Positions 18,793-64,000 of a stretch of 64,000 bases of DNA are shown one piece after another (within the stretch, counting starts at the first letter, position 1; each line of letters opens with the position of its first letter). The translations under genes and the position numbers were made by a program. This DNA is from Lutibacter sp. A80 (GTDB lineage Bacteria; Bacteroidota; Bacteroidia; Flavobacteriales; Flavobacteriaceae), in assembly GCF_022429645.1 (NCBI RefSeq), contig NZ_CP092480.1, positions 2,090,501 through 2,154,500 of the forward strand, written 5' to 3'. The notes under the pieces are model-generated. The model searched no databases, was not told where the DNA came from, and worked only from the letters and a program-made list of their open reading frames with translations.

Positions 18793-20097
18793 TTATAAGT
18801 AATTTTTCATCATTAAAGCTGCTCCTAAAGCACTTTCATTTTTACAGTCTGAAATTTTAAATTCGATATTATCTTTTAAAAGCCTTAAAAATTTGATAAA
18901 GATTTCATTTTTATTAAATCCCCCAGAAATAAACACATTTGAAATGTTTGCATTTTTATCTGAAATTAAATCAATACCAACTATAACTTTTTTTGCTATT
19001 TCATAAATTAATTGATAATACGCTGTTTCGTATGATGTAAAAGCATTTAAGTTCTCTTTGTAAGCTTCAAAATCAGTATCTATCCCTTCAGATAAAAATA
19101 TTCTAGCATTTTTCTGGTGTATTTCTTCACAAAGCATTGCGTTTAAAGAAAGGTCTAAATGCGTATTTATATTAACATTATAGTGTTCACTTAATGCTTT
19201 TAAATACACTTCATGAATTCTTCCCAAAAACTGCATAGAAGATTTTATTTGTTGTTTTTCTGGTGTCATAAAACACAAGCAATTATTATTAAGTTGATGC
19301 TGCGTTAACACTTCCTTACTAAACGGATTCATAGCAATAATCCACGTTCCAGTTGATAATAATACAAAATCTTTTTCTTTGTCTAATAATGGAATTATAG
19401 ATGATGAACTATCATGCATACCCATACCTACAGCTATTTTTTCTCCATTAATTTCAGCAATTGTTGCTTTGTTTCCTTTGCAAGGTTCTGGTAAAGTTAT
19501 ATTTTCATCTTTTAACCAACTATGATACTGCATAGTATCAAAATCCCAAGTGGCTGTATGGGCACCTACTGAAGTATAATCAGCTGTAATTTTACCAGTA
19601 AATAAATAACTTAAATACTGTGGATAGTGTAAAACAGCATTAACTTGTTTCCAGATTTCTGGCTTATACTTTTTAATCCAAAGTATTTGCAACCCCGTAT
19701 TTAACATTCCATAAACTGGAGAAGCAGTTTTTCTTGAAAACTCTTCTACTCCCCCATTTTTTCTGTATAGATTTTCGTAATCTTTTAAATCTAATTTTTT
19801 TAGATAATTATATAAAGGCGTAAGACGTTTTCCAGCTTTATCTAAATACATTAAAGAAGCTCCATGTGTTGTAAAATTAATGGCTTGTATTTTAAAATCA
19901 CCTTTTTTTTGAATGCTTAAAATTTGATTTTTAATCCAGTTTTCAATAGCTACAATGTCATCACAAGGAAAACCATCATCATCAATTATTTCATCAAATT
20001 GAGTTGAATTTTGAAATACTACTTCAAAATTCTCATCAAATAAAAATACTTTTTTATTTGTTTTTCCTATATCAATTACTGCTATAACTTTTTTCAT
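18793..20097 (-). CDS. FGGY-family sugar kinase, probable L-fuculokinase
   Basis: A 434-residue cytoplasmic kinase. The N-terminal phosphate-binding strand AVIDIGKTNKKVFLF and the second-domain VLLSTGTWIIAMNPF and NVFISGGFNKNE segments show the FGGY fold. It is somewhat shorter than E. coli FucK or RhaB (about 470-490). It is last of three minus-strand genes after an aldolase and L-fucose isomerase, so the expected reaction is phosphorylation of L-fuculose to L-fuculose-1-phosphate. Rhamnulose kinase activity cannot be excluded because FGGY kinases are hard to separate by eye and the aldolase is RhaD-like. Kinase function is secure; the substrate is inferred from context. Confidence 0.8.
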   Translation of the reverse strand: MKKVIAVIDIGKTNKKVFLFDENFEVVFQNSTQFDEIIDDDGFPCDDIVAIENWIKNQILSIQKKGDFKIQAINFTTHGASLMYLDKAGKRLTPLYNYLKKLDLKDYENLYRKNGGVEEFSRKTASPVYGMLNTGLQILWIKKYKPEIWKQVNAVLHYPQYLSYLFTGKITADYTSVGAHTATWDFDTMQYHSWLKDENITLPEPCKGNKATIAEINGEKIAVGMGMHDSSSSIIPLLDKEKDFVLLSTGTWIIAMNPFSKEVLTQHQLNNNCLCFMTPEKQQIKSSMQFLGRIHEVYLKALSEHYNVNINTHLDLSLNAMLCEEIHQKNARIFLSEGIDTDFEAYKENLNAFTSYETAYYQLIYEIAKKVIVGIDLISDKNANISNVFISGGFNKNEIFIKFLRLLKDNIEFKISDCKNESALGAALMMKNYL

Positions 20098-20120
20098 TTT
20101 TATTGAAAATTAAGGTATTA

Positions 20121-20167
20121 AAAGCCATCCTTATAATTCCATTTCTAAAATTATAAGGAAAAGCTTT
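20121..20167 (-). other. Stem-loop between fucI and the kinase gene
   Basis: CCTTATAATT (20129-20138) pairs with AATTATAAGG (20149-20158) around a 10-base loop, and an outer AAAGC/GCTTT pair (20121-20125, 20163-20167) extends it. No T-run follows on the minus strand. It may tune kinase expression or stabilise the mRNA; function unproven. Confidence 0.4.
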
Positions 20168-20244
20168 AACAATATTATAAAAAGAAGCCGGTACCTATAT
20201 TAAACGGTTATAATTGAACCAATTCTTTTTATCAGTTTAATTAT

Positions 20245-22032
20245 TTATTCTTTAAAACCATATAGAGGTCCGTAGTTATTGCAGGCTCTATAATCTGCTC
20301 CTTCTAAGTTTTCACCAAAAGCCGACCATGAACTAGGTCTAAATATATCATTTTCATCTACATTATGCATATTTACAGGAATGCGTAACATGGCTGCTAA
20401 TGAAATTAAATCGGCTCCAATATGCCCATGAGAAATAGCACCATGGTTAGCGCCCCATTTAGCCATTACGGTGTAAACATCTTTAAAAAAGCCTTTACCT
20501 GTTGTTCTAGGTACAAACCAAGTTGTTGGCCAAGTAGGATCGGTTCTTTCATTTAAAATGGTATGAATATCTTCTGGTAATTCTACGCTCCAACCTTCAA
20601 CAATTTGTAAAACAGGTCCAATTCCTTTAATTAAATTGACTCTACACATGGTTAATGGCATTTGTCCTTTAGTTAAGAAATTAGATGAAAATCCTCCACC
20701 TCTAAAATATTCAGTTGTAGCTGGTGGCCATTTGGTATTATCTAAACATCTTTTAACATCTTCTTCTGTAATATCCCAAAATGGTTTCATAGTTGGGTTT
20801 CCTTCAGCATCTAGTTGTTGTGCAGTTGCATCTAAGGTTGTAGAACCTGAATTTATTAAGTGAATAATCCCGTTTTCAGCAATACCTGTTAATTTTTTAC
20901 CAGTTACACGCTCTACAGATTCTGGACTCCAATAAGTTCTTACATCAGAGAATAACTGTGCTTTATTAGTTAATAAATGACCAAATAACATAGAAATTGC
21001 ATTTAAACAATCGTTTTCTGTAGCAAATACATAGGCTTGACGAATACCATTCCAGTCAAATGATGAATTTAAAATAGATTCTGTAAAATCTGCATTTGGC
21101 TGGTAATCTGTCCATTGTCGTTGTCCTTGAAAACCTCCCATAATAGCATTTCTACCTTTAGATTCTTCACCAAAGCCCATTTCTTTTAATTTTGGGTTTC
21201 CGTTCATTAAATCTTTGCAGATTAGAGTCATTTTCACAACTTTTTCCCACTCTTCATCTTTTTCTTCTCGAGATTTTTGCGATTCAGGGTTATTTCTATC
21301 CGCTCCTTCTTCACAATTCGCTTTTGTCCAAGCTAGCGCTTTTTCGTATTCATCTTGATCAAAAATATTGTTTTCAATTCGCCTTAAAAGCTCAACAGAT
21401 TCAACAAATTCAGCTCTTACGCCTAAATAATCTTGTAAAAAGTTTACATCAACCATAGATCCAGCAATACCCATAGAGCTATATCCTATAGATAAATAAG
21501 ATTTCCCTTTCATTTGGGCAACTGCTAAAGCACCTTTAACAAAACGTATAATTTTTTCAGAAACATCTTGAGGAATGGATTTATCATCACCATCTTGTAC
21601 TTCTTTACCATAAATACCAAAAGCTGGTAATCCTTTTTGAGCATAACCTGCTAATGCTGCTGCTAAATATACTGCTCCTGGTCTTTCTGTTCCATTAAAT
21701 CCCCAAACTGCTTTTGGCGTTAACGGATCGGTATCCATTACTTCGGTTCCATAACACCAACAAGGTGTTACTGTTAAAGAAACTTCTACACCTTCTCTTT
21801 TAAATTTATCGGCACAAGCAGCAGCATCTGCAACACCGCCAATTGTGGTATCTGCAATAACACATTCTACTTTTTCTCCACTTGGAAAACGCAACGTATC
21901 TTCAATTAATTTTGCTGCAGCTTTGGCCATATCCATACATTGAACCTCTAAAGATTCTCTAACGCCTAATTCACGTCCATCAATTACAGGACGAATTCCT
22001 ACTTTTGGTAATCTACCTATTAGTCTATTCAT
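20245..22032 (-). CDS. fucI: L-fucose isomerase
   Basis: 595 residues, the usual FucI length, cytoplasmic, converting L-fucose to L-fuculose with a divalent metal. The N-terminus ([14 protein letters not shown]), the [14 protein letters not shown] region, [13 protein letters not shown] and the C-terminal [19 protein letters not shown] are characteristic FucI blocks. Its start lies 19 bases after the stop of the aldolase gene, and the kinase follows 147 bases downstream, forming one catabolic unit. FucI also acts on D-arabinose, but the neighbouring fucP and the fucosidase-rich region make L-fucose the natural substrate. Confidence 0.96.
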
Positions 22033-22051
22033 TATGTTTAGTTTTAGTATT

Positions 22052-22846
22052 CTATGTAAATTGTTCTAATTCTGTCAATTGTTCGTTTGAAAGCCCTGCT
22101 GGTTTAAAACCTGCTGCCCAACACATCATCAATAATTTAGCACCTTTGTTTGCTACATCTAAAAAATCCCAGGCTTTTTCTACATCTGGTGCGGTTGCAG
22201 TTGCACCATGTTTTTCCCATAAAGAGATATTTCTTGTTTTAAAAGCTTCTATAGTTACTTTTGCCAATGGCTCTGTACTAGACAATGCATATGGTGTACA
22301 GTGAATTCCTTTAGGTACAAATACTTTAATTTCAGGACACATCATCCATAATTGTCTATTCAATTCTTCCTCATCATTAAATAATTCATGATGACTCATA
22401 CAAATTAATTCTAACGGATGTGTATGTACAACTGCTAAATTTTCTGGATGATTAATTGAATTAAACAAATGTATACTTGCATGTGAAATTAATTCACAAG
22501 TAGGACCAAAACCTTCTCTTTTACCTCCCCAAATAATTGAATAAGCAGTTGCATCTTCATTGATATAAAGTATACAAGAAGCTTCTTCAATTTTATCTAT
22601 TAAATCTCTTAGATAACAGCCTGTACCAGTAATATAAATTACAAAGCCAGCAGCTCCTTTAGGAAAATCAAATGGCACTTCTGTACCAATACCTTTCACT
22701 TCTTCTTTAGAAAAAAAAGATGTTAAATTAATTGAAATATTTCCTGCATTTCTTTCAGCCCATTCTCTTTGCCATAAATAACCGGCTACTTTAGAGACAT
22801 TATTTAATTCTTTTTGTACTTCATTAGGAAGTTTAATTGTACCCAT
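22052..22846 (-). CDS. rhaD: Class II aldolase, RhaD-type (6-deoxy-ketohexose-1-phosphate to DHAP plus L-lactaldehyde)
   Basis: 264 residues of the class II aldolase/adducin fold. The N-terminus ([17 protein letters not shown]) and length match rhamnulose-1-phosphate aldolase (RhaD, about 274) better than FucA (about 215). Zinc-ligand candidates are visible in VVHTHPLEL, with a later histidine in [11 protein letters not shown]. No rhamnose isomerase or rhamnulokinase pair is visible, and the gene is first in an operon with fucI, so it probably cleaves L-fuculose-1-phosphate. The symbol reflects sequence type, not proven substrate. Transcription starts in the short intergenic region shared with the AraC regulator. 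Confidence 0.83.
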
Positions 22847-22876
22847 ATCTATTATTTTATAACATAATTAATACTA

Positions 22877-22928: not shown

Positions 22929-22953
22929 TATCTAATTCAAACATTTTGAGTTT

Positions 22954-23853
22954 ATGAAGTTCGTAAAAGATATTGAATTAGGAGATCCTTCGTCAAATAA
23001 TCAAAATTTTATCGACCTTAAATTAAGGTTGTTATGTTGCAGATATTGGTTGTTAGATTTGTGGGATTGCCATGATATGGTGTTTCCTTTTTGGAGGCTG
23101 TATTGGAATAAAAATGAAGGAGGCGAATTAATTCATCAAGAAAACATTTATAAAATGGACCCTAAATTTCTTTATATTATTCCACCTTTTACATCATTTT
23201 CTACACAGTTTACAAAAAATCATAAATTTAATAATGGTATTCATGTAAATGGAAAACAATTGACAAGTTTTTATGATGAAAATGAGTATTACGATAAACA
23301 TTTAATTCATTTTTTTGTGCATTTTAACTTAGGAATTCCTTTTGATAACGTGTATCCAGGGATTTTTAAAATTGAATTAACCGATTACCTTAAAGATAAA
23401 TTACACTATTTAACAAATAGATTAAAAATTGAAAACAGCGATTTTAAATTAACGTTTAACTTAAAATTACAAGCTTTTATAAAAGAGGCTCTTACTAATA
23501 TTGGTCCAGAATTGTGGAAAGCTATAGATATTGACGATCGTGTTTTAAAAGTAATTAGATTTATTGAAATTAATATTGGCAAAAAAATGAGCAATTCAGA
23601 TTTAGCTGAAATTGTAAATATGGCTCCAAATTCATTTTCAAGATTATTTAAAGAAGAAATAAATATTACACTACATAATTTTATTCAAAACAGAAAAATT
23701 GCCAAAGCTTGTCATTTGTTTGAACATACCAATAAAACCATTGAAGACGTTGCCTTTAATTTAGGATTTTCAGACCGCTACCATTTTTCTAGAGTGTTTA
23801 AATCTGTTACTAGATTAACACCTGCAAGTTACAAATCGGGAAGATATACATAA
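22954..23853 (+). CDS. AraC-family transcriptional regulator of L-fucose catabolism
   Basis: 299 residues with an N-terminal sugar-sensing cupin-like region (roughly 20-180) and two helix-turn-helix units at the C-terminus (about 200-295; NSDLAEIVNMAPNSFSRLFK and DVAFNLGFSDRYHFSRVFK). It is divergent from the aldolase-fucI-kinase operon and just upstream of aldA and fucP, so it most likely activates these genes in response to L-fucose or L-fuculose. Effector and sites are inferred. It is a cytoplasmic classical AraC protein, unlike the HTCS used by the neighbouring PUL. Confidence 0.88.
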   Translation: MKFVKDIELGDPSSNNQNFIDLKLRLLCCRYWLLDLWDCHDMVFPFWRLYWNKNEGGELIHQENIYKMDPKFLYIIPPFTSFSTQFTKNHKFNNGIHVNGKQLTSFYDENEYYDKHLIHFFVHFNLGIPFDNVYPGIFKIELTDYLKDKLHYLTNRLKIENSDFKLTFNLKLQAFIKEALTNIGPELWKAIDIDDRVLKVIRFIEINIGKKMSNSDLAEIVNMAPNSFSRLFKEEINITLHNFIQNRKIAKACHLFEHTNKTIEDVAFNLGFSDRYHFSRVFKSVTRLTPASYKSGRYT

Positions 23854-24198: not shown

Positions 24199-25644
24199 AT
24201 GAAACAGTTTAAACAATTTATTAATGGTAAATTTATTGACTCGACCTCTACTAAAATTAAAGAAATTTTAAACCCGTGTACTGAAGAAGTTATATCAACA
24301 ATTCCAGCGGGATCTGTTGAAGATGCAAACTTAGCCCTAGAAGCTGCTAAAAATGCACAACCTGCATGGGAAGCACTTCCTGCCATACAAAGAGCTAGTT
24401 TTTTACATAAAATGGCTGATATTATAAGAACAAATAGAATATTTTTAGCAGAAACCTTAGCCAAAGAACAAGCAAAAGTAATTGGATTGGCTCAGGTAGA
24501 AATTGATGTGACTGCAGATTATTTTGATTATAATGCTGGATGGGCAAGAAGAATTGAGGGAGAAATAATTCAAAGTGATAGAGAAAACGAACATATTTAT
24601 TTACACAAAGTTCCAATTGGAGTTGCCGTTGGAATTTGCCCTTGGAATTTTCCTTTTTTTGTAATGGCACGTAAAGTTGCTTCATCTTTAATAACAGGAA
24701 ATACTTGTGTTATTAAACCAAGTTGTGAAGCTCCTAATACAATAATGCAATGGGCAGAATTAATTGAAAATATTGGATTGCCTGCAGGTGTATTAAATAT
24801 TGTGTGCGGATCTGGTAGTACTGTTGGTAACGCGCTTACTAAAAGTCCAATTACAGGAATAGTTAGTTTAACTGGTAGTGTATTTGCTGGACAAAAAATT
24901 ATTGAAGCTGCAGCAGAGAATATTACAAAAGTATCTTTAGAGCTTGGAGGTAAAGCTCCTGCCATTGTTTGTTCTGATGCTAATTTAGAGTTGGCGGTAA
25001 ATTCAATTGTTACATCAAGAGTTATTTTTAGTGGACAAGTTTGTAACTGTGCTGAAAGAGTCTATGTTCAAGATAATATCTACGACAAGTTTATGGAAAT
25101 GATTACCAAAAAAATGAATGAAGTTAAAGTTGAAGATGCTTTAACTGGAGTAAATGCCGACATGAGCGCTTTGGTTTCTAAAGACCAATTAGATAAGGTT
25201 TCTGAAATGGTTGAATTTGCTAAAAAAGAAGGAGCTGAAGTTGTTGTAGGAGGTAAACGTTCCGAACAATTTGATAAAGGATATTTCTACCAACCTACCT
25301 TATTAACAAACTGTAGACAAGATATGGAAATTATTCAAGAAGAAGTTTTTGGTCCTGTATTACCCGTTATGAAATTTGGAACTTTAGAAGAAGCTGTAGC
25401 ATTATCTAACGACAGTAAATTTGGACTAACATCTTCTATTTTCTCTGAGAATTTCAATAATATTATGTATGCAACAACTAAATTACAATATGGAGAAACT
25501 TATGTAAATAGAGAGCATTTTGAAGCAATGCAAGGTTTTCATGCTGGTTGGAAAAAATCAGGTGTAGGTGGAGCAGATGGAAAACATGGAATGGAAGAGT
25601 ATTTACAAACAAAAGTTGTTTACGCACAATACTATAACAAATAA
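24199..25644 (+). CDS. aldA: Lactaldehyde dehydrogenase (aldehyde dehydrogenase superfamily)
   Basis: 481 residues, the usual length for NAD-dependent lactaldehyde/glycolaldehyde dehydrogenase. The catalytic pair is visible: E248 in SLELGGKAPAIV and C282 in SGQVCNCAERVYV, with IGICPWNFPF-type cofactor residues upstream (GVAVGICPWNFPFF). In this setting it oxidises the L-lactaldehyde released by the aldolase to L-lactate, which the lutABC products downstream then convert to pyruvate. It is separated from fucP by a 110-base gap holding a long inverted repeat. The match to AldA is good, and substrate assignment rests on the operon. Confidence 0.9.
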   Translation: MKQFKQFINGKFIDSTSTKIKEILNPCTEEVISTIPAGSVEDANLALEAAKNAQPAWEALPAIQRASFLHKMADIIRTNRIFLAETLAKEQAKVIGLAQVEIDVTADYFDYNAGWARRIEGEIIQSDRENEHIYLHKVPIGVAVGICPWNFPFFVMARKVASSLITGNTCVIKPSCEAPNTIMQWAELIENIGLPAGVLNIVCGSGSTVGNALTKSPITGIVSLTGSVFAGQKIIEAAAENITKVSLELGGKAPAIVCSDANLELAVNSIVTSRVIFSGQVCNCAERVYVQDNIYDKFMEMITKKMNEVKVEDALTGVNADMSALVSKDQLDKVSEMVEFAKKEGAEVVVGGKRSEQFDKGYFYQPTLLTNCRQDMEIIQEEVFGPVLPVMKFGTLEEAVALSNDSKFGLTSSIFSENFNNIMYATTKLQYGETYVNREHFEAMQGFHAGWKKSGVGGADGKHGMEEYLQTKVVYAQYYNK

Positions 25645-25653
25645 TAAACTCTT

Positions 25654-25735: not shown

Positions 25736-25754
25736 CAATACTCAACTTTCATAA

Positions 25755-27047
25755 ATGAAAAAAAATAACACACCTATAGTTCCTAAAGAATATTTAATTC
25801 CATTTATTTTAATAACATCGCTATTTGCGTTGTGGGGATTTGCCAATGATATTACAAACCCAATGGTAGCGGCTTTTGGAACAGTTATGGAAATTTCAAC
25901 GGCAAAAGCTGCATTAGTTCAATTTGCTTTTTATGGTGGCTATGCAACAATGGCTATACCAGCTGCATTATTTGTACAAAAGTACAGCTATAAAAAAGGA
26001 ATTATATTCGGACTAATTTTATACGCCATTGGCGCTTTATTGTTTTACCCTGCAGCTCAGTTCGAGGTGTTTGGATTCTTTTTAGTCTCTTTATATATTT
26101 TAACTTTTGGATTGGCCTTTTTAGAAACTACTGCAAACCCATTTATTTTATCTATGGGAGACGAAAAAACAGCTACTAGACGTTTAAATTTAGCACAATC
26201 TTTTAACCCTATTGGGTCTTTATTAGGTATGTTTGTTGCTTCAAAATTTATTCTTGCAGCATTAGACTCAGATAAAAGAACTGCAACAGGCGAATTAATT
26301 TTTACCACGTTAGATGAAGTTCAAAAAGCAGCTATACGTACACATGATTTATTAATAATTAGAAATCCTTATATAATTTTAGGATTTGTAGTAATTGCAA
26401 TGTTGGTAATTATTAGTGTTTATAAAATGCCTGAAGAAGAAAAAAAAGATGAAAATTTTAATGCCTTAGCATCGTTTAAAAGACTGCTTAAAAATGAAAA
26501 ATATAGAGAAGGTGTAATTGCTCAAATGTTTTATGTTGCTGCTCAAATTATGTGTTGGACTTTTATTATTCAATATGCAGATAATTTAGGTATAGTAAAA
26601 TCAACTGCTCAAAATTATAATATAGTTGCTATGGGTATTTTCCTTTCAAGCAGATTTATTAGCACCATGTTAATGAAATATATAAACGCTAAAAAACTAT
26701 TACTGTTTTTTGCAATAGGTGCAATGTTTAGCGTAACAGGAGTTATACTTATTGAAGGTCAATTAGGATTGTATTTACTAGTTGCAACATCGGCATTTAT
26801 GTCGCTAATGTTTCCAACAATTTATGGAATAGCATTATATAAATTAGGTAAAGATACCACTTTAGGAGCCGCAGGATTGGTAATGGCAATTGTTGGTGGA
26901 GCATTAATGCCTCCTTTACAAGGTGCAATTATAGATTTAGGTACAGTTGGTTGGCTTCCTGCCGTAAATGTTTCATTTATATTGCCTTTAATTAGCTTTT
27001 TAGTGATTGCAATTTACAGTTATAGAACTTTAAAAGTTCATGAATAG
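25755..27047 (+). CDS. fucP: L-fucose:H+ symporter (MFS)
   Basis: 430 residues and about 12 membrane helices. The first loop and helix (FALWGFANDITNPMVAAF) and the FLETTANPFILSMGDEKTA block with the following NLAQSFNPIGSLLGM are hallmarks of the FucP branch of the major facilitator superfamily. It imports free L-fucose across the inner membrane after periplasmic fucosidases release it. The gene begins a plus-strand run with the mutarotase (32-base gap) and lutABC. Related transporters carry other sugars, but context strongly favours L-fucose. Confidence 0.93.
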   Translation: MKKNNTPIVPKEYLIPFILITSLFALWGFANDITNPMVAAFGTVMEISTAKAALVQFAFYGGYATMAIPAALFVQKYSYKKGIIFGLILYAIGALLFYPAAQFEVFGFFLVSLYILTFGLAFLETTANPFILSMGDEKTATRRLNLAQSFNPIGSLLGMFVASKFILAALDSDKRTATGELIFTTLDEVQKAAIRTHDLLIIRNPYIILGFVVIAMLVIISVYKMPEEEKKDENFNALASFKRLLKNEKYREGVIAQMFYVAAQIMCWTFIIQYADNLGIVKSTAQNYNIVAMGIFLSSRFISTMLMKYINAKKLLLFFAIGAMFSVTGVILIEGQLGLYLLVATSAFMSLMFPTIYGIALYKLGKDTTLGAAGLVMAIVGGALMPPLQGAIIDLGTVGWLPAVNVSFILPLISFLVIAIYSYRTLKVHE

Positions 27048-27079
27048 TTTTTGGATGTTAATTTTTAAGTAAATATTAA

Positions 27080-27409
27080 ATGAAAAAATACTGCCTAACA
27101 CTCGATTTAAAAAACGATAAAACCTTAATTGCTGAATATAAAAAATACCATAAAAAGATTTGGCCAGAAATTACAGAAAGCCTTATTAATTCAGGAATTA
27201 AAAATGCTGAAATCTATTGTGTAGAAAATCGACTTTTTATGATTTTAGAAGTTGATGAGGACTTTTCTTTTGAAAAAAAGGACAAAATGGATTTAGAAAA
27301 TCCTAAAGTACAAGAATGGGAAAATTTGATGTGGAAATATCAAAAAAAATTACCTTTTGCTAAAGAAGGAGAAAAATGGATACTTATGGAAAAAATTTAC
27401 CAATTATAA
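27080..27409 (+). CDS. L-rhamnose/L-fucose mutarotase (RhaM-type)
   Basis: 109-residue small alpha/beta-barrel protein. The N-terminal LDLKNDKTLIAEYKKYHKKI with WPEI and the C-terminal segment ending KWILMEKIYQL match the RhaM/DUF718 mutarotase family, with H24-region histidine as the likely catalytic residue. It interconverts anomers so that FucI and the transporter see the right form. It lies between fucP and lutA. The family was first described for rhamnose, and members in fucose clusters act on fucose, which is the likely role here. Confidence 0.85.
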   Translation: MKKYCLTLDLKNDKTLIAEYKKYHKKIWPEITESLINSGIKNAEIYCVENRLFMILEVDEDFSFEKKDKMDLENPKVQEWENLMWKYQKKLPFAKEGEKWILMEKIYQL

Positions 27410-27421
27410 ATCTAAAAAACA

Positions 27422-28159
27422 ATGAGAGTAGGCTTATTCATACCTTGCTATATCAATCAATTGTATCCTCAAGTTGCCATTGCAACACTAGAACTACTAG
27501 AAAAGTTAAATGTAGATGTTTATTATCCATCAACTCAAACTTGCTGTGGACAACCGTTAGGGAATTCAGGTTATGAAGAAGATTCTAAAGGAGCCTGCCA
27601 ATTATTTGTTGAAAATTTTGCAGCATACGATTATATTGTTGGACCTTCAGGAAGCTGTATTTATCACGTAAAAAAACATTTCGATATTATAGAACAAACA
27701 CCAGATGTTGTTAAAGTTAGAAACAATGCTTTTGAATTATGTGAATTCATAGTAAAAGTACTAGGAAAAACAGATTTAGGTGCTTCATTTCCCCATAAAG
27801 TTGGACTACATAAAAGCTGCCATGGATTAAGAGGATTGCATCTGGGCTCTTGTTCCGAAAGAATGGATCCATATTATTCTACAGAAGAAGATTTATTAAA
27901 CAATGTGAAAGGATTGGAATTAATGCAATTAAATAGAGCGGATGAATGTTGTGGTTTTGGCGGTACATTTTCTGTATTTGAAGAAGCCGTTTCAGTAAAA
28001 ATGGGTAAAGATAAAATTCAAGATCATTTAGATAATGGTGTTGAAGTTATTACGGGTGCAGATCATTCTTGTTTAATGCATTTAGAAGGTTTAATAAATA
28101 GAGATAATAAACCGTTAAAAGTGATGCATATTGCCGAAATTTTAAATAGTACTATTTAG
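27422..28159 (+). CDS. lutA: L-lactate utilisation protein LutA
   Basis: 245 residues with two cysteine-rich CCG domains: CCGQPLGNSGYEED near residue 40 and ECCGFGGTFSVFEE near 180, with a CHGLRGLHLGSCSE segment between. This is the LutA/YkgE family, the (Fe-S)-binding subunit of the LutABC complex that oxidises L-lactate to pyruvate. It starts 12 bases after the mutarotase gene and ends 2 bases before lutB. Its placement in a fucose operon fits disposal of lactate made by aldA. Confidence 0.93.
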   Translation: MRVGLFIPCYINQLYPQVAIATLELLEKLNVDVYYPSTQTCCGQPLGNSGYEEDSKGACQLFVENFAAYDYIVGPSGSCIYHVKKHFDIIEQTPDVVKVRNNAFELCEFIVKVLGKTDLGASFPHKVGLHKSCHGLRGLHLGSCSERMDPYYSTEEDLLNNVKGLELMQLNRADECCGFGGTFSVFEEAVSVKMGKDKIQDHLDNGVEVITGADHSCLMHLEGLINRDNKPLKVMHIAEILNSTI

Positions 28160-42472: not shown

Positions 42473-42505
42473 TCTTACTAATTTTAATAATTTATAAAAA
42501 CGCAT

Positions 42506-42674
42506 TTTTTAATTTTAACGCCATTATTTTCCACGATTTCAATCTGAAGATTTGGAAATTCATATTGTTTTGCCATAACTTTCAATTCTGATTTTTGTAC
42601 ACCAAAACTATCCATTACAAAATTTTTAAAACCAATATTTAATGCTGGTGAGTTTTCTTTAACTCTAAAATTTC
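42506..42674 (-). pseudogene. Decayed copy of the 3' end of the GH141-like gene
   Basis: Positions 42521-42674 align without gaps to 44395-44548 (constant offset 1874) with 13 differences, about 92% identity. That segment encodes about residues 640-690 of the GH141-like protein. Weaker similarity continues to about 42506. No reading frame start exists here, so it is a remnant. It abuts the GH117-like gene on one side and overlaps the end of the SGNH gene on the other. Confidence 0.9.
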
Positions 42675-47931: not shown

Positions 47932-47973
47932 TTTCTTGAATATTAAATTATTTATCAAAACTTAATTTTTATA

Positions 47974-55426: not shown

Positions 55427-56914
55427 TTAATCTACATTTAAAAAAGTTGTTTGACTAAATGTAAATACATCTGATGGTGTTCTCGCTTCTTTAATTATAG
55501 TTTCCATTTTTGAAACTATTTCAGGATTTTGAGCTGCCACATTATTTTTTTCACTTGGATCTTTAGATAAATCGTATAATTGAATTGGAGCATTAGGATT
55601 TTTAAGTACTTGATATTTTACAGCTTTCCAATCTCCCATTCTTACAGCCTGACGACCTCCTTTTTCATGAAACTCCCAATATAAATATTCATGTTCTTTT
55701 TGCGCTTCAGTATTACCTAAAATTTCTGGTAAAAATGAAATTCCATCTATATTATTTGGTTTGTCTACACCTATAATATCAGAAAATGTTGGAAAAACAT
55801 CCCAAAAAGCAGAAATATGGTTAGATGTACTATTCTCTTTAACTTTTCCTGGCCACTTAACAATCATTGGCACTCTAATTCCCCCTTCATATAAATCTCT
55901 TTTCGTTCCTTTAAAAACACCATTACTATTAAAATAATTTGGATCTGCACCACCTTCTTTATGTGGACCATTGTCTGATGTAAAAATAATAATTGTATTA
56001 TCAGCTATTCCAAGTTCTTCAACTTTAGTCATTATTTCACCAACTTGTTGATCTAATAAATCAATCATAGCGGCAAAAGCAGCATGAGATTCATTTTGAG
56101 ACTGGTATGCTCCATTTCTTAATTCTGCAGGAGTACTATTATCTGTAAATACTTTTTCTGGTAAAAATTTACCTCTGTACTTAGCCATAAGTTCTTCTGG
56201 GGCTGCTAATTCAGCATGCGGAATAATAGATGCTACATATGCAAAAAATGGTTTATCCTTATTATCTTCTATAAATTGGATGGTTTTTTCGTGAATTACA
56301 CTTGGTGCATAAATTTTATTTGCAAAGTTTTCGTTACCTTCTAAAACAATAGAATCTCTATTTGACCATAAATGATCTGGATAATACTTATGTCCTAATC
56401 GTTGACAATTATACCCGAAAAAAGTATCAAACCCTTGATTTACAGGATCTCCTTCTGAACCAGGAAAACCTAATCCCCATTTACCAAAAGCACCTGTTGT
56501 ATAACCTGCCTTTTTCATAACTTCAGCTAAAGTATATGTATCATCCGGTATTGGATATTGTCCTTCTGGTTGAATTTCTTTATTACCTCTAACAACCGTA
56601 TGACCAGTGTGCATACCAGTTAAAAGAGCAGAACGCGATGGCGCGCAAACAGTACTTCCTGAATAATGCTGTGTAAACATCATTCCTTTAGAAGCTAGTT
56701 TATCTATATTTGGTGTAGAAAATTTTTCTTGGCCATAACAGCTTAAATCTCCATAACCAAGATCATCTGCAAGGATATAAATTATGTTTGGTTTACTTGT
56801 GCTTCCTTCAACATTGGAAGCTACAGAATCTTGTGTCTTATTGCTAGACGAATTACATGACATTAACACTATTGAAAACAATAGAATTAAAATGGAAGTT
56901 GAAATTTTAGTCAT
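55427..56914 (-). CDS. S1-family sulfatase, lipoprotein
   Basis: 495 residues, lipobox C20 (IVLMSCNS). Formylglycine cysteine C90 in STVCAPSRSALLTGMHTGHT with the following VVRGNKEI, typical of the arylsulfatase A-like S1 branch. Other motifs: ILADDLGYGDLSCYG, GAFGKWGLGFPGSEG (tryptophan-glycine in place of the usual WHLG), and IIFTSDNGPHKEGG. The histidine of WHLG is replaced by G here, a variant known in part of the family. It ends 1 base before the start of the clan GH-A gene. Confidence 0.92.
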   Translation of the reverse strand: MTKISTSILILLFSIVLMSCNSSSNKTQDSVASNVEGSTSKPNIIYILADDLGYGDLSCYGQEKFSTPNIDKLASKGMMFTQHYSGSTVCAPSRSALLTGMHTGHTVVRGNKEIQPEGQYPIPDDTYTLAEVMKKAGYTTGAFGKWGLGFPGSEGDPVNQGFDTFFGYNCQRLGHKYYPDHLWSNRDSIVLEGNENFANKIYAPSVIHEKTIQFIEDNKDKPFFAYVASIIPHAELAAPEELMAKYRGKFLPEKVFTDNSTPAELRNGAYQSQNESHAAFAAMIDLLDQQVGEIMTKVEELGIADNTIIIFTSDNGPHKEGGADPNYFNSNGVFKGTKRDLYEGGIRVPMIVKWPGKVKENSTSNHISAFWDVFPTFSDIIGVDKPNNIDGISFLPEILGNTEAQKEHEYLYWEFHEKGGRQAVRMGDWKAVKYQVLKNPNAPIQLYDLSKDPSEKNNVAAQNPEIVSKMETIIKEARTPSDVFTFSQTTFLNVD

Positions 56915-57379: not shown

Positions 57380-59689
57380 TTAAAGCTTTAATAACTGATT
57401 ATTAAACTTTAATACTTCACCTACTTTTGTATCAAAACTTTTTAGAGTTTTTCCATAACGAACTTGCAAGTTATTTCCAAGTTTAGATCGTACAACAAGC
57501 GTTTGAAGTTTTCCTTCTTTCCATTCTATGTCTACTTCAAAGCCTTTACGAGCCACAATACCTTTTATTGAACCATTTGCCCATTCTTTTGGTAAAGCAG
57601 GCAATACGTATATTTCTCCTTCATGGCTTTGCATTAACATTTCTGTGACACCAGAAACTAACCCAAAATTACCATCAATTTGAAATGGAGGATGTTTATC
57701 TAATAGGTTGGGTAAAGTAGATTTTTGTTGTAATGCTACAATATTTTCATGAGCTTTTTGAGGCTCTAATAAACGCGCCCAAAAGTTTATAATCCAAGCT
57801 CGACTCCAGCCTGTATGACCGCCTCCGTTAGCAAGTCGATGTTCTATGGTTTTTTTTGCAGCTTCAAATAACTCAGGTGTTTTTGTTTTTGAAATTTGAT
57901 TAGAAGGATGCAAAGCATATAAATGAGATATATGTCTATGCCCTTCATTTTCTTCTTTAAACTCTTCAACCCACTCCATTAAACGTCCATCACTTCCTAT
58001 TTTAAGTGGCGGCATTTGCTGTATTTTATTTTGTAGAGTATTTCTAAAATCAGTGTCTACACCCAAAATATCTGCCGCTGAAATACAATTTTGAAACAAT
58101 TCAAAAATTATTTCTCTATCCATTGTAGATCCCATACTAATGGTTGCCATTTCTCCATTTTTATCTAAAAAACTATTTTCAGGTGATACAGAAGGCCCTG
58201 AAAGTAACTGTCCTGTTTTAGGGTCGATTACCATAAAATCTACAAAAAACTGCGCAGCTTCTTTCATTACAAGATATGCATAATTTTTTAAGTATTCTTT
58301 ATCTTCTGTATATTCAAAATGTGTATACAAATGTTGGCAACACCAAGCTGCACCCATAGGCCACATACCATATCTTGCCCTTCCAAAACCAAAAGTATTG
58401 TGCCAAATATCACTAGTATGGTGTGCCACAAAACCGCTACAACCATAAGTTTCTTTTGCTGTAATTCGCCCCATTTCACGAAGGTTACCGATATATTCTA
58501 AAAACGGTTCATGGCATTCAGATAAATTTGTCATTTCTGACATCCAATAATTCATTTGAACATTGATATTGATATGATAATCGGAGTTCCAAGGAGGTGT
58601 TAAACCATTAACCCATATTCCTTGTAAATTGGCAGGTAATGTTCCTGATCTAGAACTACTAATTAATAAATACCTTCCAAACTGATATTGAAGCTGTGTA
58701 AGATAATTATCGAAGCTTCCATTTTTTACTTTTTTAAGTCGTTGATTTGTAGGTAAATCTAAACCATCATTATCTGAAATATGAAAATCTACTCGTTTAA
58801 ACAAAGAGCGATAATCAGCAATATGTTTTTCCTTTAATTCATTGTAATTTAAAGACAAAGCGTGGTCTAAATTCTGCTGACACAAGGTCTTTGGGCTATC
58901 AGTACGATAATCGCTAACTGCAGTTACACGGATAATTACCTCATCCGCTTCTGATATCACTAATTTTCCATCTTTAATTTCTGATTTTCCTCCTTTTGCT
59001 TCAAAATGAATAATAGCATAAAACTTAACACCTACTCCGCTCCCTACATGCTCAGAAAATTTTATAACATTCTCAGCCAATTCAATTTTAGTGTTTTCAG
59101 TACGTTTAACACCTGCAGAAAAACTAATAGCACTATCTTTATCTGCTGAGTATTTAAAAACCATCACTTTATCGGGAAAACTAGAAAAATATTCATTCTT
59201 ATAAGTAATCCCATTTTTTTGAAATGAAGTTGTTACAATAGAATGGTTTAGATCTAATTCACGTTTATAATTCAAAAGGCTATCTAAATCAGAATTTTCA
59301 ATAAATAAATTCCCCAACATCTGATTTGCATTGGTTCCTGAAGGTAAACGCTTTGCTAATAATTTTTCGGCAACTACATTTTCAGCTTCAATATATTCAC
59401 CATCAAACAATAATTGGCGAATCTCACCTAAAGCCTTATTCCCATCCTTTTTATCATTATACCATTTTTTCCCACTCCAAATAGTTTCTTCATTAAGGCA
59501 AATTATTTCTTTTGCTGGAGTTCCATAAATCATACTCCCTAAGCTACCATTACCAATAGGCAAACCTTCATCCCATTTTGTTGTAGGCTGATTAAACCAA
59601 ATTTTTAAGGGTGTTTCTTGCTCTATTTCAGTTGTTTTTGAACAACCAAAAAATATAAAAATCAGCAATATTGGAAGTATGTTTTTCAT
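57380..59689 (-). CDS. GH95-family alpha-L-fucosidase, lipoprotein
   Basis: 769 residues, lipobox C16 (FFGCSKTT). The opening WDEGLPIGNGSLGSMIYG and the (alpha/alpha)6 barrel are typical of GH95. Catalytic-site motifs: H372/N374/N376 in DYHININVQMNYW, E572 in GRLMEWVEEF, the HRHISHLYALHPSNQ block and D672 in FQIDGNFG. In GH95 a histidine two before the first Asn is associated with L-fucose rather than L-galactose specificity, and it is present here. The enzyme inverts and removes terminal alpha-L-fucose. Fucose released would enter through FucP. It follows the first sulfatase of the battery by 34 bases. Confidence 0.92.
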   Translation of the reverse strand: MKNILPILLIFIFFGCSKTTEIEQETPLKIWFNQPTTKWDEGLPIGNGSLGSMIYGTPAKEIICLNEETIWSGKKWYNDKKDGNKALGEIRQLLFDGEYIEAENVVAEKLLAKRLPSGTNANQMLGNLFIENSDLDSLLNYKRELDLNHSIVTTSFQKNGITYKNEYFSSFPDKVMVFKYSADKDSAISFSAGVKRTENTKIELAENVIKFSEHVGSGVGVKFYAIIHFEAKGGKSEIKDGKLVISEADEVIIRVTAVSDYRTDSPKTLCQQNLDHALSLNYNELKEKHIADYRSLFKRVDFHISDNDGLDLPTNQRLKKVKNGSFDNYLTQLQYQFGRYLLISSSRSGTLPANLQGIWVNGLTPPWNSDYHININVQMNYWMSEMTNLSECHEPFLEYIGNLREMGRITAKETYGCSGFVAHHTSDIWHNTFGFGRARYGMWPMGAAWCCQHLYTHFEYTEDKEYLKNYAYLVMKEAAQFFVDFMVIDPKTGQLLSGPSVSPENSFLDKNGEMATISMGSTMDREIIFELFQNCISAADILGVDTDFRNTLQNKIQQMPPLKIGSDGRLMEWVEEFKEENEGHRHISHLYALHPSNQISKTKTPELFEAAKKTIEHRLANGGGHTGWSRAWIINFWARLLEPQKAHENIVALQQKSTLPNLLDKHPPFQIDGNFGLVSGVTEMLMQSHEGEIYVLPALPKEWANGSIKGIVARKGFEVDIEWKEGKLQTLVVRSKLGNNLQVRYGKTLKSFDTKVGEVLKFNNQLLKL

Positions 59690-59723: not shown

Positions 59724-61244
59724 TTATTGTTTCAAGTTTTCAAATATTTGAATCAATTCTTTTAGCTTTTCAGGATTTTCTTTTGCCAAATTATTTTGTT
59801 GACCTATATCATTTTTAAGATTATAGAGTTTATATTCTAATGAATAACCTGTTTCTGTACCTACTTTTTTATTAATACTTTGCCCTTTATATGGTGGTAT
59901 CATAATCCAATCTCCACTTCTTAAAGCTGTATTAGATTTTGCTTCAATAATTAAATGATCACGACCTTTATCTGAAACCCCCATTAATGTATTTAAGAAG
60001 TTTTTACTATCAGTTGGTTTTTCATTTACCCCAACAAGATCTGCTAATGAAGCCAATAAATCCATTTGACAAATTATAGCATCTGACACGCCCGGATTAA
60101 TTTTACCTTTCCAATAAGTTATAAAAGGTATACGTGTTCCTGCTTCAAAAAGGCTGTATTTACCTCCGCGTAAACCTCCTTTAGGATCGTGATTACCTAA
60201 TTTTTCAACGGCATCATCAAAATAACCATCATTTAAAACAGGACCATTATCGCTAGAGAATACAATAAGAGTATTCTCTAAAATTCCTTCATCTTCAAGT
60301 GTTTTTATAAATTCTCCTATACACCAATCTGCCTCTAAAATTACATCGCCTCTTGGTCCCATTCCTGATTTACCAACAAATCTTGGATGTGGAGTTCTTG
60401 GAACATGTGGCTGTTGCATTGCATAATAAAGAAAAAATGGTTTTTCTTTATGTGTTTTTATATAATTTTGTGCTTTACTTAAAAAATGATCTGCCATATC
60501 AACATCGCTCCATTTTGCAGCATCTCCACCTTTCATATATCCAATTCTTGGAATGCCATTTACAATGCTATTATTATGACCATGGTGCCATTTCATTGTT
60601 AGCATTTCTGGATTTGATTTTGCTGTTGGTTCTCCTTCAAAATTCTTTTTATAATTAACCTCAATAGGATCGCTTTTATCTAAATTTACAACATTCCCAT
60701 TTTCAATATAAACTGTAGGTACTCGATCTTGTGTGGCGGCTAAGATATACGCTTCATCAAACCCCACTTCATTAGGTCCTGGTTTAATAGTCTCATTCCA
60801 ATTTACAAATCCCGATCCTAAACCTAAATGCCACTTTCCAATAATAGCAGTTTGATAACCTGCTTTTGATAGCATTTTAGGTAATGTTTGTTGCTTTGTG
60901 TCTATTAACAAAGGAGCATCTCCTGGTAATATTTTAGCATCTTTATTTCTCCAAGGATACATTCCGGTTAATAAAGCATAACGACTAGGTGTGCAAGTTG
61001 CAGAAGTAGCATAACCATTGGTAAATTTTACACCTCCCAATGCTAAATTATCGATATTTGGAGTTTTTATAGCTGTTGCTCCATAGCAACTTAAATCCCC
61101 ATATCCTAAATCATCAAGGTAAATAACTACAACATTAGGTTTAATTGTATCTTTATCTATAACCGTGGATGTATTGTTTTTACAACTTAAGTTTACGAGT
61201 AATATAAATGCACCTAAGAAGCTTTTGTATAATTTTAAATTCAT
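59724..61244 (-). CDS. S1-family sulfatase, lipoprotein; first gene of the minus-strand battery
   Basis: 506 residues, lipobox C21 (LLVNLSCKN). Formylglycine cysteine C84 in SATCTPSRYALLTGMYPWRN. Other motifs: IYLDDLGYGDLSCYG, IIGKWHLGLGSGF and VFSSDNGPVLNDG. Like the 51272 enzyme it has the 'GLG' form after GKWH. Its promoter region is shared with the susC gene on the right, so the enzyme battery and the transporter are probably co-induced. Confidence 0.93.
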   Translation of the reverse strand: MNLKLYKSFLGAFILLVNLSCKNNTSTVIDKDTIKPNVVVIYLDDLGYGDLSCYGATAIKTPNIDNLALGGVKFTNGYATSATCTPSRYALLTGMYPWRNKDAKILPGDAPLLIDTKQQTLPKMLSKAGYQTAIIGKWHLGLGSGFVNWNETIKPGPNEVGFDEAYILAATQDRVPTVYIENGNVVNLDKSDPIEVNYKKNFEGEPTAKSNPEMLTMKWHHGHNNSIVNGIPRIGYMKGGDAAKWSDVDMADHFLSKAQNYIKTHKEKPFFLYYAMQQPHVPRTPHPRFVGKSGMGPRGDVILEADWCIGEFIKTLEDEGILENTLIVFSSDNGPVLNDGYFDDAVEKLGNHDPKGGLRGGKYSLFEAGTRIPFITYWKGKINPGVSDAIICQMDLLASLADLVGVNEKPTDSKNFLNTLMGVSDKGRDHLIIEAKSNTALRSGDWIMIPPYKGQSINKKVGTETGYSLEYKLYNLKNDIGQQNNLAKENPEKLKELIQIFENLKQ

Positions 61245-61848
61245 TATTCTATTGCTTTAAATTTTATTCAACTTTAAAAACACTATTAAAAAATTATTTC
61301 ACAAATTTAAAATTTTTATACCCAAAAAACTTCTCAATTATGGGGTTTAAATGTTACTTTATTTGAATAGAAAAAACTTAAAATCATTTATATCAAGGTT
61401 TTGACAATTTTTAATACTGTTATTTCTTCACCTTACTAAAAATTGATTTAATGTTATACAGGTACCTAAATTTCCACAACAAACTATAATTATTCACTCA
61501 ACACCAATTAGAAATAAAGCCCTAATTACAATGTTAGACCACTGTTTAATACACTGCTAAACAAGTACTACAAAGTTTAAATTCCTAATAATAAAAAGAT
61601 TTTATTATTATTAAAATTAGCATTAAACAACCCCTATTTGCTTTATAAATTATTTTCCAAAACAATGGTAATATTTTGTTAAAAACCAAAAACAATGCTA
61701 TTTTAACAGGGTTATTTAACATTTTAGTAACATTTACCCCCCATAATTGAGAAAATCAAAACATTTAAACATCTTATTTTTGTATAACAATATTCTAGAA
61801 GAGAAATTTTCTAGAGCAAATAAAAACAAACTAAACAAATTTAACATT
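61245..61848. promoter_or_regulatory. 604-base divergent promoter region
   Basis: No gene seen. TATTTTTG at 61775-61782 is a -7 candidate for susC (about 65 bases before its start). CAAATTTA at 61302-61309 (TAAATTTG on the minus strand) is a candidate for the sulfatase gene at 61244. A perfect AT-only hairpin lies at 61586-61610 (11-base-pair stem, 3-base loop). Regulator sites were not recognised. Confidence 0.5.
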
Positions 61849-64000
61849 ATGAAATTGAAGATAATTACACTTTTTACATGCTGTTTTAGTCTTATTTCTG
61901 TATGGTCCCAATCCAACGTTTCAGGTACGGTGACTGACGAAACAGGAATGCCACTAATCGGCGTTAATGTTTTAATTAAAGACACCTCAAAAGGTGTCAC
62001 TACAGATTTTGACGGTAATTTTCAAATTAGCGTAAATCCAGGCGAAATTTTAAGTTTCTCGTATATTGGTTACAAGGAACAAACAGTATTAATCAACACC
62101 CAAAAAACCTTAACAATTGTAATGACTGAAAACGCTTCAAAATTAGATGAAGTTGTAATTGTTGGGTATGGTTCACAAAAAAAAGAGAGTGTTTTAGGTG
62201 CCATTAGCCAAGTAAAAGGTGCAGAAATATTAGAATCTGGTGCTTCTAATATTACCAATGCATTAAGTGGACTTTCACCAGGTTTAAATATTGTTCAAAC
62301 TTCTGGTCAACCAGGAGACGATGCGGGTGATATTTATATTCGTGGTAACTCAGACCCATTAATATTAGTAGATGGGGTTGAAGTTGTTGGAGGGTTTGCA
62401 AATATAGACCCTAGAGATGTAGCAAGTGTTAGTACACTTAAAGATGGTGCTGCTACTGCCGTTTACGGTATTAGAGGTGCAAACGGAGTTATTATAATTA
62501 CTACAAAAAGAGGGCAAATAGGAAAACCAGTAGTAAGTATAACTAGTGAAGTTACTATGAAATTTTATCCAGACAAATATGATTCTTTAGACGCATATGC
62601 TGCTGAGAGTTTACGAAATGTAGGTGTCTATAATGACGCTGCTTTTGATACTGGTTTCTCTACAGAAGCTGAATTAGAACACTGGAAAAATGGAGATTTA
62701 CCTTATATCTATCCAAATACAGATTGGGTTGACTTTACAACAAAAGACTTTGCAACAAGTTTTAATCAGTCGGTGTCTGTAAGAGGTGGTACAGATTTTG
62801 TTAAATATTATGCTTCTGCAGGATATTTACAAGAAGGTGACATTACAAATTCTGAACAATTTTACAACTACGATCCAGAATATAAATTTGAAAGATATTC
62901 ATTTAGAGGAAATTTAGACTTTACATTATCTAATACAACTCGCTTAAAAACAAGTGTTAGTAGCCGAATAGAAGATCAAAATAAAGCGCGTGGAACTGTC
63001 AGCAACGATTTTTTAAGGCTGTTTACAGTTGCTCCAGGAAGTAGTGTACCATATTACCCTGAAGAAGCTCTAGAACTTTATCCAGACCCTCTTTACCCTG
63101 GATTGGTAGAAAAAAGGTTCCCAATAAGTAGTACAATAGGTACTTTTCTTGAAGGATCAACTAATACTATAAAAACAATTTTCTCTATTGATTTTCAGTT
63201 AGAACAAGACTTAGACTTTATTACTGAAGGTTTAACATTTACGGGTAAATATAACTTTATTAGTAATTACCAAACACAAAGTGAAATAAAATTTGACTCA
63301 TCTTTAGAAACAAGACTAGATAGATACGATTTGTTACCTGATGGTACTTGGGATTCTTTTGAAGGTGCAGATTACGAACGTCCTTACGATTTTAATTTAG
63401 GAAGTGAAAGTATTAATAATACTCAAGAAATATCTTATACAAAAGCACAATTTGATTATAAACGTTCTTTTGATAGACATAACGTAACAGCTTTAGGTGC
63501 TTTTAGTCGTAATAAAAGAATTAACAACACAGATTTCCCATATTATGAAGAAGTTTGGGTTGGTAGAGCAACTTACAACTATGATACTCGTTATTTTTTC
63601 GAAATAAATGGTTCATACAACGGTGACGAAACTTTTGCTGAAGGACAACGTTTTAAGTTTTTCCCATCATATTCTGTAGGTATTAATTTAGCTAAAGAAA
63701 AATGGGTAGAAGAAGCCATACCAGCTCTTAACAATTTTAAAATTAGATATTCTAATGGTAAAACTGGAACAAAAAGTGGTTTAGGAACCAATCGTTGGCA
63801 ATATTTAAGTTTCTATGATAATATAAGTGGAACTGCATCAATAAGACCAACTTGGAGATATAACTTTGGAGAAGGTGATACAGGACGTTTATCTGTTATT
63901 AGAGAAACCCAACTTGGAAACGAAGAATTAACATGGTCTACAGTTACAAAACAAAACTTAGGTGTTGAATTTGGACTTTTTGACAATGAAATATCTGGAG
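61849..64000 (+). CDS. SusC-like TonB-dependent transporter, cut by the window edge
   Basis: Open from 61849 to the last base (at least 717 residues). Signal peptide (FSLISVWSQ), then carboxypeptidase-like extension SGTVTDETGMPLIGVNVLI, plug LDEVVIVGYGSQKKESVLGA and ANGVIIITTKRG, then beta-barrel strands. It should import oligosaccharides of the sulfated glycan, with a SusD partner expected just to the right of the window. It is divergent from the sulfatase/fucosidase battery and is clearly different from the SusC at 9092. Confidence 0.94.
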   Translation, partial: MKLKIITLFTCCFSLISVWSQSNVSGTVTDETGMPLIGVNVLIKDTSKGVTTDFDGNFQISVNPGEILSFSYIGYKEQTVLINTQKTLTIVMTENASKLDEVVIVGYGSQKKESVLGAISQVKGAEILESGASNITNALSGLSPGLNIVQTSGQPGDDAGDIYIRGNSDPLILVDGVEVVGGFANIDPRDVASVSTLKDGAATAVYGIRGANGVIIITTKRGQIGKPVVSITSEVTMKFYPDKYDSLDAYAAESLRNVGVYNDAAFDTGFSTEAELEHWKNGDLPYIYPNTDWVDFTTKDFATSFNQSVSVRGGTDFVKYYASAGYLQEGDITNSEQFYNYDPEYKFERYSFRGNLDFTLSNTTRLKTSVSSRIEDQNKARGTVSNDFLRLFTVAPGSSVPYYPEEALELYPDPLYPGLVEKRFPISSTIGTFLEGSTNTIKTIFSIDFQLEQDLDFITEGLTFTGKYNFISNYQTQSEIKFDSSLETRLDRYDLLPDGTWDSFEGADYERPYDFNLGSESINNTQEISYTKAQFDYKRSFDRHNVTALGAFSRNKRINNTDFPYYEEVWVGRATYNYDTRYFFEINGSYNGDETFAEGQRFKFFPSYSVGINLAKEKWVEEAIPALNNFKIRYSNGKTGTKSGLGTNRWQYLSFYDNISGTASIRPTWRYNFGEGDTGRLSVIRETQLGNEELTWSTVTKQNLGVEFGLFDNEISG

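Follow-up and report, generated by a model that had tools for sequence, protein, structure and literature searches.

Gene content and order of the locus

The subject of this study is a 64,000-nucleotide stretch of the genome of Lutibacter sp. A80 (Flavobacteriaceae; contig NZ_CP092480.1, positions 2,090,501 to 2,154,500 of the forward strand), hereafter called the window, in which an earlier note had described a fucoidan-type degradation region joined to a full L-fucose-to-pyruvate pathway. We scanned 38 window proteins with Pfam profiles and applied NCBIfam models with their curated cut-offs, and the gene classes named in that note are present at the coordinates listed below. Two modules can be distinguished. 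Module 1 (18793-30106) is catabolic, with genes for a kinase, the L-fucose isomerase FucI and an aldolase on the minus strand, and for an AraC-type regulator, an AldA-type dehydrogenase, the transporter FucP, a RhaM-type mutarotase and LutABC on the plus strand. Module 2 (30128-61244) consists of 19 genes, all on the minus strand, which encode GH117-fold proteins, esterase-type proteins and S1 sulfatases (five of each), a GH141-like protein, a GH95 protein, a protein with fn3 domains and weak similarity to GH39, and a protein that we call P852; the intergenic gaps measure 1-225 bp, with a single exception of 465 bp. We read the region, with a probability of about 0.8, as a polysaccharide utilization locus whose target would be a fucose-containing sulfated polysaccharide (FCSP), probably a galactofucan or fucan with sulfate and O-acetyl groups, and which lies beside the only L-fucose isomerase pathway of the genome.

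Module 1, predicted L-fucose catabolism:
18793..20097, minus: FGGY sugar kinase, predicted L-fuculokinase, nearest to a rhamnulokinase model (Pfam, NCBIfam)
20245..22032, minus: L-fucose isomerase FucI, three fucose-isomerase domains (Pfam; NCBIfam 1052 bits, cut-off 850)
22052..22846, minus: RhaD-like class II aldolase, L-fuculose-1-phosphate as predicted substrate (Pfam, NCBIfam)
22954..23853, plus: AraC-type regulator, divergent from the aldolase gene (Pfam)
24199..25644, plus: AldA-type aldehyde dehydrogenase, predicted to act on lactaldehyde (NF007497, 718 bits, cut-off 500)
25755..27047, plus: L-fucose:H+ symporter FucP, major facilitator superfamily (MFS) domain (TIGR00885, 590 bits, cut-off 280)
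27080..27409, plus: RhaM-type mutarotase, L-fucose as predicted substrate (Pfam, NCBIfam)
27422..28159, plus: LutA-type lactate oxidation subunit, CCG domain (Pfam, NCBIfam)
28162..29532, plus: LutB-type lactate oxidation subunit, LUD and Fer4 domains (Pfam; NCBIfam 439.6 bits, cut-off 444.8)
29525..30106, plus: LutC-type subunit, LUD domain, start read as the ATG at 29525 (Pfam)

Module 2, predicted polysaccharide degradation, and the importer at the right edge:
30128..31210, minus: GH117-fold protein of group 1, without the GH117 catalytic residues (alignment)
31259..32089, minus: alpha/beta-hydrolase esterase with G-x-S-x-G (Pfam, motif)
32164..33297, minus: GH117-fold protein of group 1, without the GH117 catalytic residues (alignment; match to solved GH117 at only 1e-10)
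33398..34408, minus: GH117 protein with catalytic residues kept (alignment)
34461..35927, minus: two-domain esterase, BD-FAE plus SGNH (Pfam, motif)
36005..37585, minus: SASA-type acetylesterase (Pfam, motif)
37811..38863, minus: GH117-fold protein of group 1, without the GH117 catalytic residues (alignment)
38914..41472, minus: P852, 852 residues, predicted beta-propeller plus beta-sandwich, partly duplicated (AlphaFold model)
41495..42505, minus: GH117 protein with catalytic residues kept (solved GH117 chains, best E 6.8e-51 to 5.8e-48)
42639..44066, minus: SGNH/GDSL-type esterase (Pfam 26.1 bits, below the 32.9 cut-off; motif)
44244..46457, minus: GH141-like beta-helix protein, alpha-L-fucosidase or endo-fucanase (Pfam beta-helix; homology to BT_1002)
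46501..47958, minus: S1 sulfatase, nearest to an exo-4S-kappa-carrageenan sulfatase (389 bits), then S1-19 (295 bits) (Pfam, structure-sequence match)
47974..49614, minus: S1 sulfatase, nearest to an N-acetylgalactosamine 6-sulfate sulfatase (375 bits), then kappa-carrageenan S1_16 (349 bits)
49717..51123, minus: SASA-type acetylesterase (Pfam, motif)
51272..52780, minus: S1 sulfatase, remote relative of S1_15 (211-234 bits to S1_15-named chains) (Pfam, structure-sequence match)
52819..55425, minus: putative GH39-like barrel with fn3 domains (Pfam; weak match to a GH39 xylosidase, E 0.071)
55427..56914, minus: S1 sulfatase, nearest to 7ana and 7an1 (Pfam, structure-sequence match)
57380..59689, minus: GH95, alpha-L-fucosidase or galactosidase (Pfam, 593 bits)
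59724..61244, minus: S1 sulfatase, S1_15-like (S1_15-named chains at 484-520 bits) (Pfam, structure-sequence match)
61849..64000, plus: SusC-type importer, runs past the window edge (Pfam)

Pfam, motif and homology searches bore out that five S1 sulfatases, a GH95, a GH141-like protein and esterases stand next to the fucose genes. The divergent SusC reported at the right edge was likewise recovered: beyond the window edge its gene is followed by that of its SusD and by a second SusC/SusD pair, so that two such pairs, mostly outside the window, diverge from the enzyme genes of module 2. Modules 1 and 2 are convergent and 21 bp apart (30106/30128), and are therefore neighbours rather than one operon or transcript.

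The left part of the window holds a second locus (3319-18575) with a hybrid two-component system (HTCS) regulator, a DUF4625 protein, SusC/D, and GH30 and GH2 beta-galactosidase-type genes; this block may belong to the same galactofucan system. Further left (219-2882), and in locus L004, we found cupin and alginate-lyase/heparinase-domain (PL17-like) genes, with more SusD genes to the left. Relatives of the window cupin (86%) and of the PL17-like lyase (63%) occur near the fucose operon of the related genome G121 (G and L numbers are our handles for genomes and loci).

Catabolic and degradative enzymes

The pathway from L-fucose to pyruvate had been called full. This stands for FucI, FucP and the AldA-type enzyme, which exceed their cut-offs, and less well for the kinase, aldolase and mutarotase, for which the nearest models are of the rhamnose type. 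The kinase remains below the fuculokinase cut-off (40.1 versus 470.9 bits) and reaches no NCBIfam equivalog cut-off, while the aldolase remains below the cut-off for fuculose-phosphate aldolase, FucA (22.6 versus 400.25 bits), and exceeds that of the rhamnulose-1-phosphate aldolase model NF002963 (218 versus 170 bits). LutB scores slightly below its cut-off, and the LutC-type protein has no NCBIfam match. We infer the roles of kinase and aldolase in the L-fucose route from the position of their genes. The order kinase-FucI-aldolase-AraC recurs in related genomes, with AraC at the same position in several of them. RhaA has no match in the genome, as opposed to three control genomes that do match (RhaI-type isomerases were not searched for), and since FucI and FucP also exceed their cut-offs, fucose remains the fitting sugar. 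The simplest reading of these scores would be an L-fucose route built with rhamnose-type paralogues.

The intergenic region between the aldolase and araC genes was compared between Lutibacter sp. A80 and eight related genomes as a candidate for a shared regulator site. It contains a conserved box that resembles what we take to be the ordinary Bacteroidota promoter consensus, and no conclusion on co-regulation is drawn from it.

The genome, a single contig of 3.93 Mb, contains one match each to fucI, the NF002963 aldolase and RhaM, and one near-full match to LutB, the other LutB match being a 23.6-bit stretch; relatives of the aldehyde dehydrogenase are present elsewhere. Degradative families are distributed differently: 5 of the 50 sulfatase matches, one of three GH95 matches and none of eight GH29 matches fall in the window, as do five of seven matches to the GH117-fold alignment (one of the other two is weak). 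Because FucI, aldolase, mutarotase and LutB are single and all GH29 plus 45 of the 50 sulfatase matches lie elsewhere, the fucose pathway of the window probably serves several loci of the genome. A stretch of about 200 kb at ~1.24-1.43 Mb (L173-L182) is rich in relatives of sulfatases, SusC/D and glycosidases and has three GH29 matches and one GH95 match. Another sulfatase-rich stretch lies at ~1.75-1.79 Mb, and the region at 1.74-1.80 Mb combines GH30-like (52%), GH141-like (60%), GH2-like, sulfatase and HTCS-like genes with two GH29 matches.

All five window sulfatases have an intact C-x-P-[ST]-R motif. The protein at 59724 matched eight distinct chains at 484-717 bits, two of which are named S1_15, and the protein at 51272 matched the same chains more remotely, at 200-268 bits. 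In all, two of the window sulfatases are related to S1_15 and one to S1_16, subfamilies that are listed for fucoidan degraders (PMC12786026).

The five GH117-fold proteins are mutually homologous. The description of these proteins as GH117-like applies to their fold; it extends to the catalytic residues in only two of them. The protein at 41495 matches solved 3,6-anhydro-alpha-L-galactosidases at E ~1e-50 and retains Asp, Asp and His-Glu in the alignment, as does that at 33398. We take these residues to have their catalytic roles in GH117, and their positions come from the alignments. In the three group 1 proteins (30128, 32164 and 37811) the first Asp column holds Gly, and neither the second Asp nor the His-Glu pair is found at its aligned position. 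Group 1 is nonetheless related to the two residue-keeping proteins (hhalign probability 99.6). A 795-residue open reading frame (ORF) in G212 (L145, about 3093-5480) combines a group 1 GH117 fold with ~400 additional residues and may be a fusion.

The GH141-like protein matches BT_1002 (GH141) at E 2e-13 and 9rx2 at 5e-32, and has Asp residues in a stretch that may correspond to that of the two catalytic Asp of BT_1002. Both endo-fucanases and a fucosidase have been reported in GH141 (PMC12786026), so the protein could be either.

P852 has no Pfam or NCBIfam match, and its best match among PDB sequences has an E-value of 0.072; CAZy was not searched. The full AlphaFold model has a predicted local distance difference test (pLDDT) value of 89.7 and a predicted template modelling score (pTM) of 0.90, and is thus a confident one; we read its strands as a propeller and a sandwich, partly duplicated. 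The model of the N-terminal part has a pLDDT of 89.2. Foldseek returned generic beta-propellers among the best 50 matches listed, with template modelling scores by query of at most 0.26 for the full model and 0.49 for the N-terminal part. Some glycosidases (GH43, sialidase, arabinanase) appear in the list for the full model, which nevertheless does not point to any one enzyme class. An alignment of 46 sequences reveals many invariant residues, including several His, Arg, Glu and Trp; the invariant His prompted the idea of a metal-dependent lyase, which we do not put forward as a claim.

A scan of the collection returned at least 592 stretches, of which at least 550 encode a P852 relative (these are stretches, not proven distinct genes), and the best 80 distinct loci were kept. 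These belong to Bacteroidota, Verrucomicrobiota, Planctomycetota, Armatimonadota, Clostridia and others; matches occur in six of 149 genomes of the host's family, in one case as a weak fragment. By BLAST, the 78 kept loci with a P852 ORF contain fucI once, GH95 once and an S1 relative 18 times, and SusD lies at most two ORFs upstream of P852 in 14 of them. A general specificity for fucans was rejected on these counts. The neighbours vary, from SusC/D and an MFS transporter in Pedobacter and Chitinophaga to FAD oxidoreductases, GH92 or sulfatases elsewhere, and P852 therefore looks, from its sequence contexts, like a general glycan-locus protein. In L049 (Pedobacter) and L052 (Chitinophaga) the order SusC-SusD-P852-MFS transporter is compact, which could suggest P852 as the sole enzyme that supplies the imported sugar. 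We tentatively suggest, with more doubt than confidence, that P852 might be the founding member of a so far unclassified group of beta-propeller enzymes that act on glycans and occur in several phyla, that the group 1 GH117-fold proteins might be a second undescribed glycosidase group, and that both might supply chain-cutting or debranching steps in the breakdown of sulfated fucan or galactofucan that the named families of the window do not cover.

Linkage of the modules in related genomes

Among 299 genomes of the family, fucI exceeds its cut-off in 21, Lutibacter sp. A80 included. For the 20 others we compared the surroundings of fucI over ±20 kb, a range from which the window's own S1 and GH95 genes also fall out, and then up to ~40 kb where the contig allowed; the contigs of G225, G272 and G298 do not extend that far, and G207 and G129 start close to the end of a contig. 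The linkage genes were detected by BLAST (E 1e-10) with the window's own proteins as queries, a bias that favours the window. Within ~40 kb of fucI, S1 was found in 6 of the 20 genomes (G014, G121, G212, G173, G272, G094), a GH141-like gene in four (G159, G269, G244, G212), GH95 in two (G159, G014), and a GH117-fold gene (G212) and LutB (G002) in one each. P852 was detected near fucI in none of them, and neither was the combination of S1, GH95, GH117-fold and LutB. In a metagenome-assembled genome, locus L032 carries in consecutive order fucP, fucI, GH3, P852, S1, GH42M, an FAD oxidoreductase and GH95.

The degradative module also has a counterpart apart from fucose genes. A single 60-kb stretch of contig 12 of G002 contains relatives, at 65-87% identity, of GH95, four GH117-fold proteins, P852, the GH39-like protein, one esterase and three sulfatases, and additionally GH116, GH97, GH43 and GH39 domains. 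Since the modules are also found apart, their adjacency in Lutibacter sp. A80 is uncommon, not unique in kind. The joining of depolymerisation to central catabolism proposed in the earlier note therefore holds as adjacency and not as a shared operon, given the convergence of the modules and their separation in G002. Its description of the linkage as unusually complete becomes a matter of degree: none of the 20 other genomes has the full set when searched with the window's own proteins, but Maribacter dokdonensis 62-1 is comparable (PMC8072126), and our comparison cannot prove uniqueness. A different type of fucI cluster, with FucP, was observed in G269, G244 and G250 (L127-L128, L131-L132, L139-L140), which are of the same genus and family; relatives of the window's kinase and aldolase were not detected in these three clusters.

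Substrate, alternatives and known systems

For an FCSP, the following route would fit the genes. The SusC/SusD pairs would import oligosaccharides, and the GH141-like protein, possibly with P852 and the GH39-like protein, would cut or trim chains; the esterases would remove acetyl and the five sulfatases sulfate. GH95, and possibly GH141, would release L-fucose for import by FucP. The mutarotase, FucI, kinase and RhaD-like aldolase would then yield dihydroxyacetone phosphate and L-lactaldehyde, which AldA would convert to L-lactate and LutABC onward to pyruvate.

The fucoidan-type substrate of the earlier note is upheld at the level of an FCSP by FucI, FucP, GH95, the sulfatases and the lack of a RhaA match. 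Several observations weigh against our interpretation. The sulfatases at 46501, 47974 and 55427 have their nearest named structures among enzymes for carrageenan or N-acetylgalactosamine, the solved relatives of the GH117 proteins act, by their structure names, on 3,6-anhydro-L-galactose, and Pfam found no GH29 in the 38 scanned window proteins; moreover, the fucose operon of G002 is on contig 8 and the similar degradative locus on contig 12, and G269, of the same genus, has a different fucI cluster. Because the nearest named sulfatase structures are mostly galactose, N-acetylgalactosamine or carrageenan enzymes, we infer that a galactofucan is as likely a substrate as a plain fucan. A serious contender, although we put it at somewhat under even odds, is a sulfated galactan or galactofucan made up mainly of galactose, with fucose as a side branch and with the left block (3319-18575) in the same system. 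The galactose-type structures of the three sulfatases, the GH30 and GH2 genes of the left block and the similar combination of genes at 1.74-1.80 Mb all speak for it, but the left block lies across the fucose operon and has its own regulator and SusC/D, and the nearest solved structure is an unsafe guide to sulfatase specificity. An L-galactose glycan of the porphyran or agar type, on which GH95 would act as an alpha-L-galactosidase and GH117 as an anhydro-galactosidase, is not favoured and appears improbable; the earlier note had named a porphyran-like glycan as its main alternative. Two GH117 proteins do share their catalytic residues with solved 3,6-anhydro-L-galactosidases, and alpha-L-galactosidases may occur in GH95 (PMC6298971), but the 38 scanned proteins include no GH16 match (no GH86-specific model was used), and FucI, FucP and the lactaldehyde and lactate genes fit a 6-deoxy sugar.

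Even less probable, to the point of being hardly credible, is that the catabolic genes serve L-rhamnose and stand here by chance: the rhamnose-type kinase, aldolase and mutarotase would agree with this, but the RhaA search, the FucI and FucP scores and the recurrent gene order do not. That the two modules lie side by side by chance, without selection, seems somewhat less likely than not. The convergence of the modules and their different contigs in G002 are consistent with such an origin, as are the fucose modules of G121, G002, G207, G173 and G272, for which neither GH95 nor a GH117-fold gene was detected in the searched stretches. Against it stand the recurrence of S1, GH141-like, GH95 and GH117-fold genes around fucI in a minority of the 20 genomes and the L032 locus, with fucP, fucI, P852, S1 and GH95 in one row.

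An FCSP locus beside a fucose pathway is of a type already known, and comparable loci have been published; P852 is its most novel part. FCSP loci of North Sea Flavobacteriia have a mean of 38 genes and are rich in sulfatases, with GH29/GH95 and GH117, and also GH30 and GH39 (PMC6298971). The present locus shares the GH95, GH117 and sulfatase genes and differs in its lack of GH29, its five GH117-fold genes and the adjacent isomerase pathway. In the ulvan/fucoidan locus of Maribacter dokdonensis 62-1, GH95, GH117 and GH141 are followed downstream by genes for a fucose importer and fucose catabolism; these include fuconolactonase and fuconate dehydratase genes, whereas Lutibacter sp. A80 has the FucI-aldolase route with LutABC (PMC8072126). 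GH141, GH95 and S1 sulfatases likewise occur in the fucoidan cluster of Wenyingzhuangia fucanilytica (PMC12786026), and Flammeovirga pacifica WPAGA1, which grows on fucoidan, likewise has the route through FucI, kinase and aldolase (PMC5385347). FCSP loci are predicted in Zobellia galactanivorans as well, and one of them contains a GH117 gene that is induced by fresh algae (PMC9296495). The fucose/rhamnose microcompartment loci of Verrucomicrobiota also use sulfated methyl pentoses via lactaldehyde (PMC8857213), but the scanned window proteins include no shell-protein match and have an AldA-type enzyme and LutABC instead. The exact linkage of FucI and LutABC in Flavobacteriia was not found described in the literature searched, which left out most subscription papers.

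Taken as a whole, the earlier interpretation is partly supported. P852 is a candidate for an undescribed enzyme family common to marine and terrestrial bacteria, and is the part of the locus most worth work at the bench. Fucoidans are degraded slowly and contribute to long-term carbon storage (PMC12786026). In Lutibacter sp. A80, predicted desulfation, deacetylation and fucose release stand next to a single-copy fucose isomerase gene, the loss of which should block growth on every fucose polymer that the strain uses.

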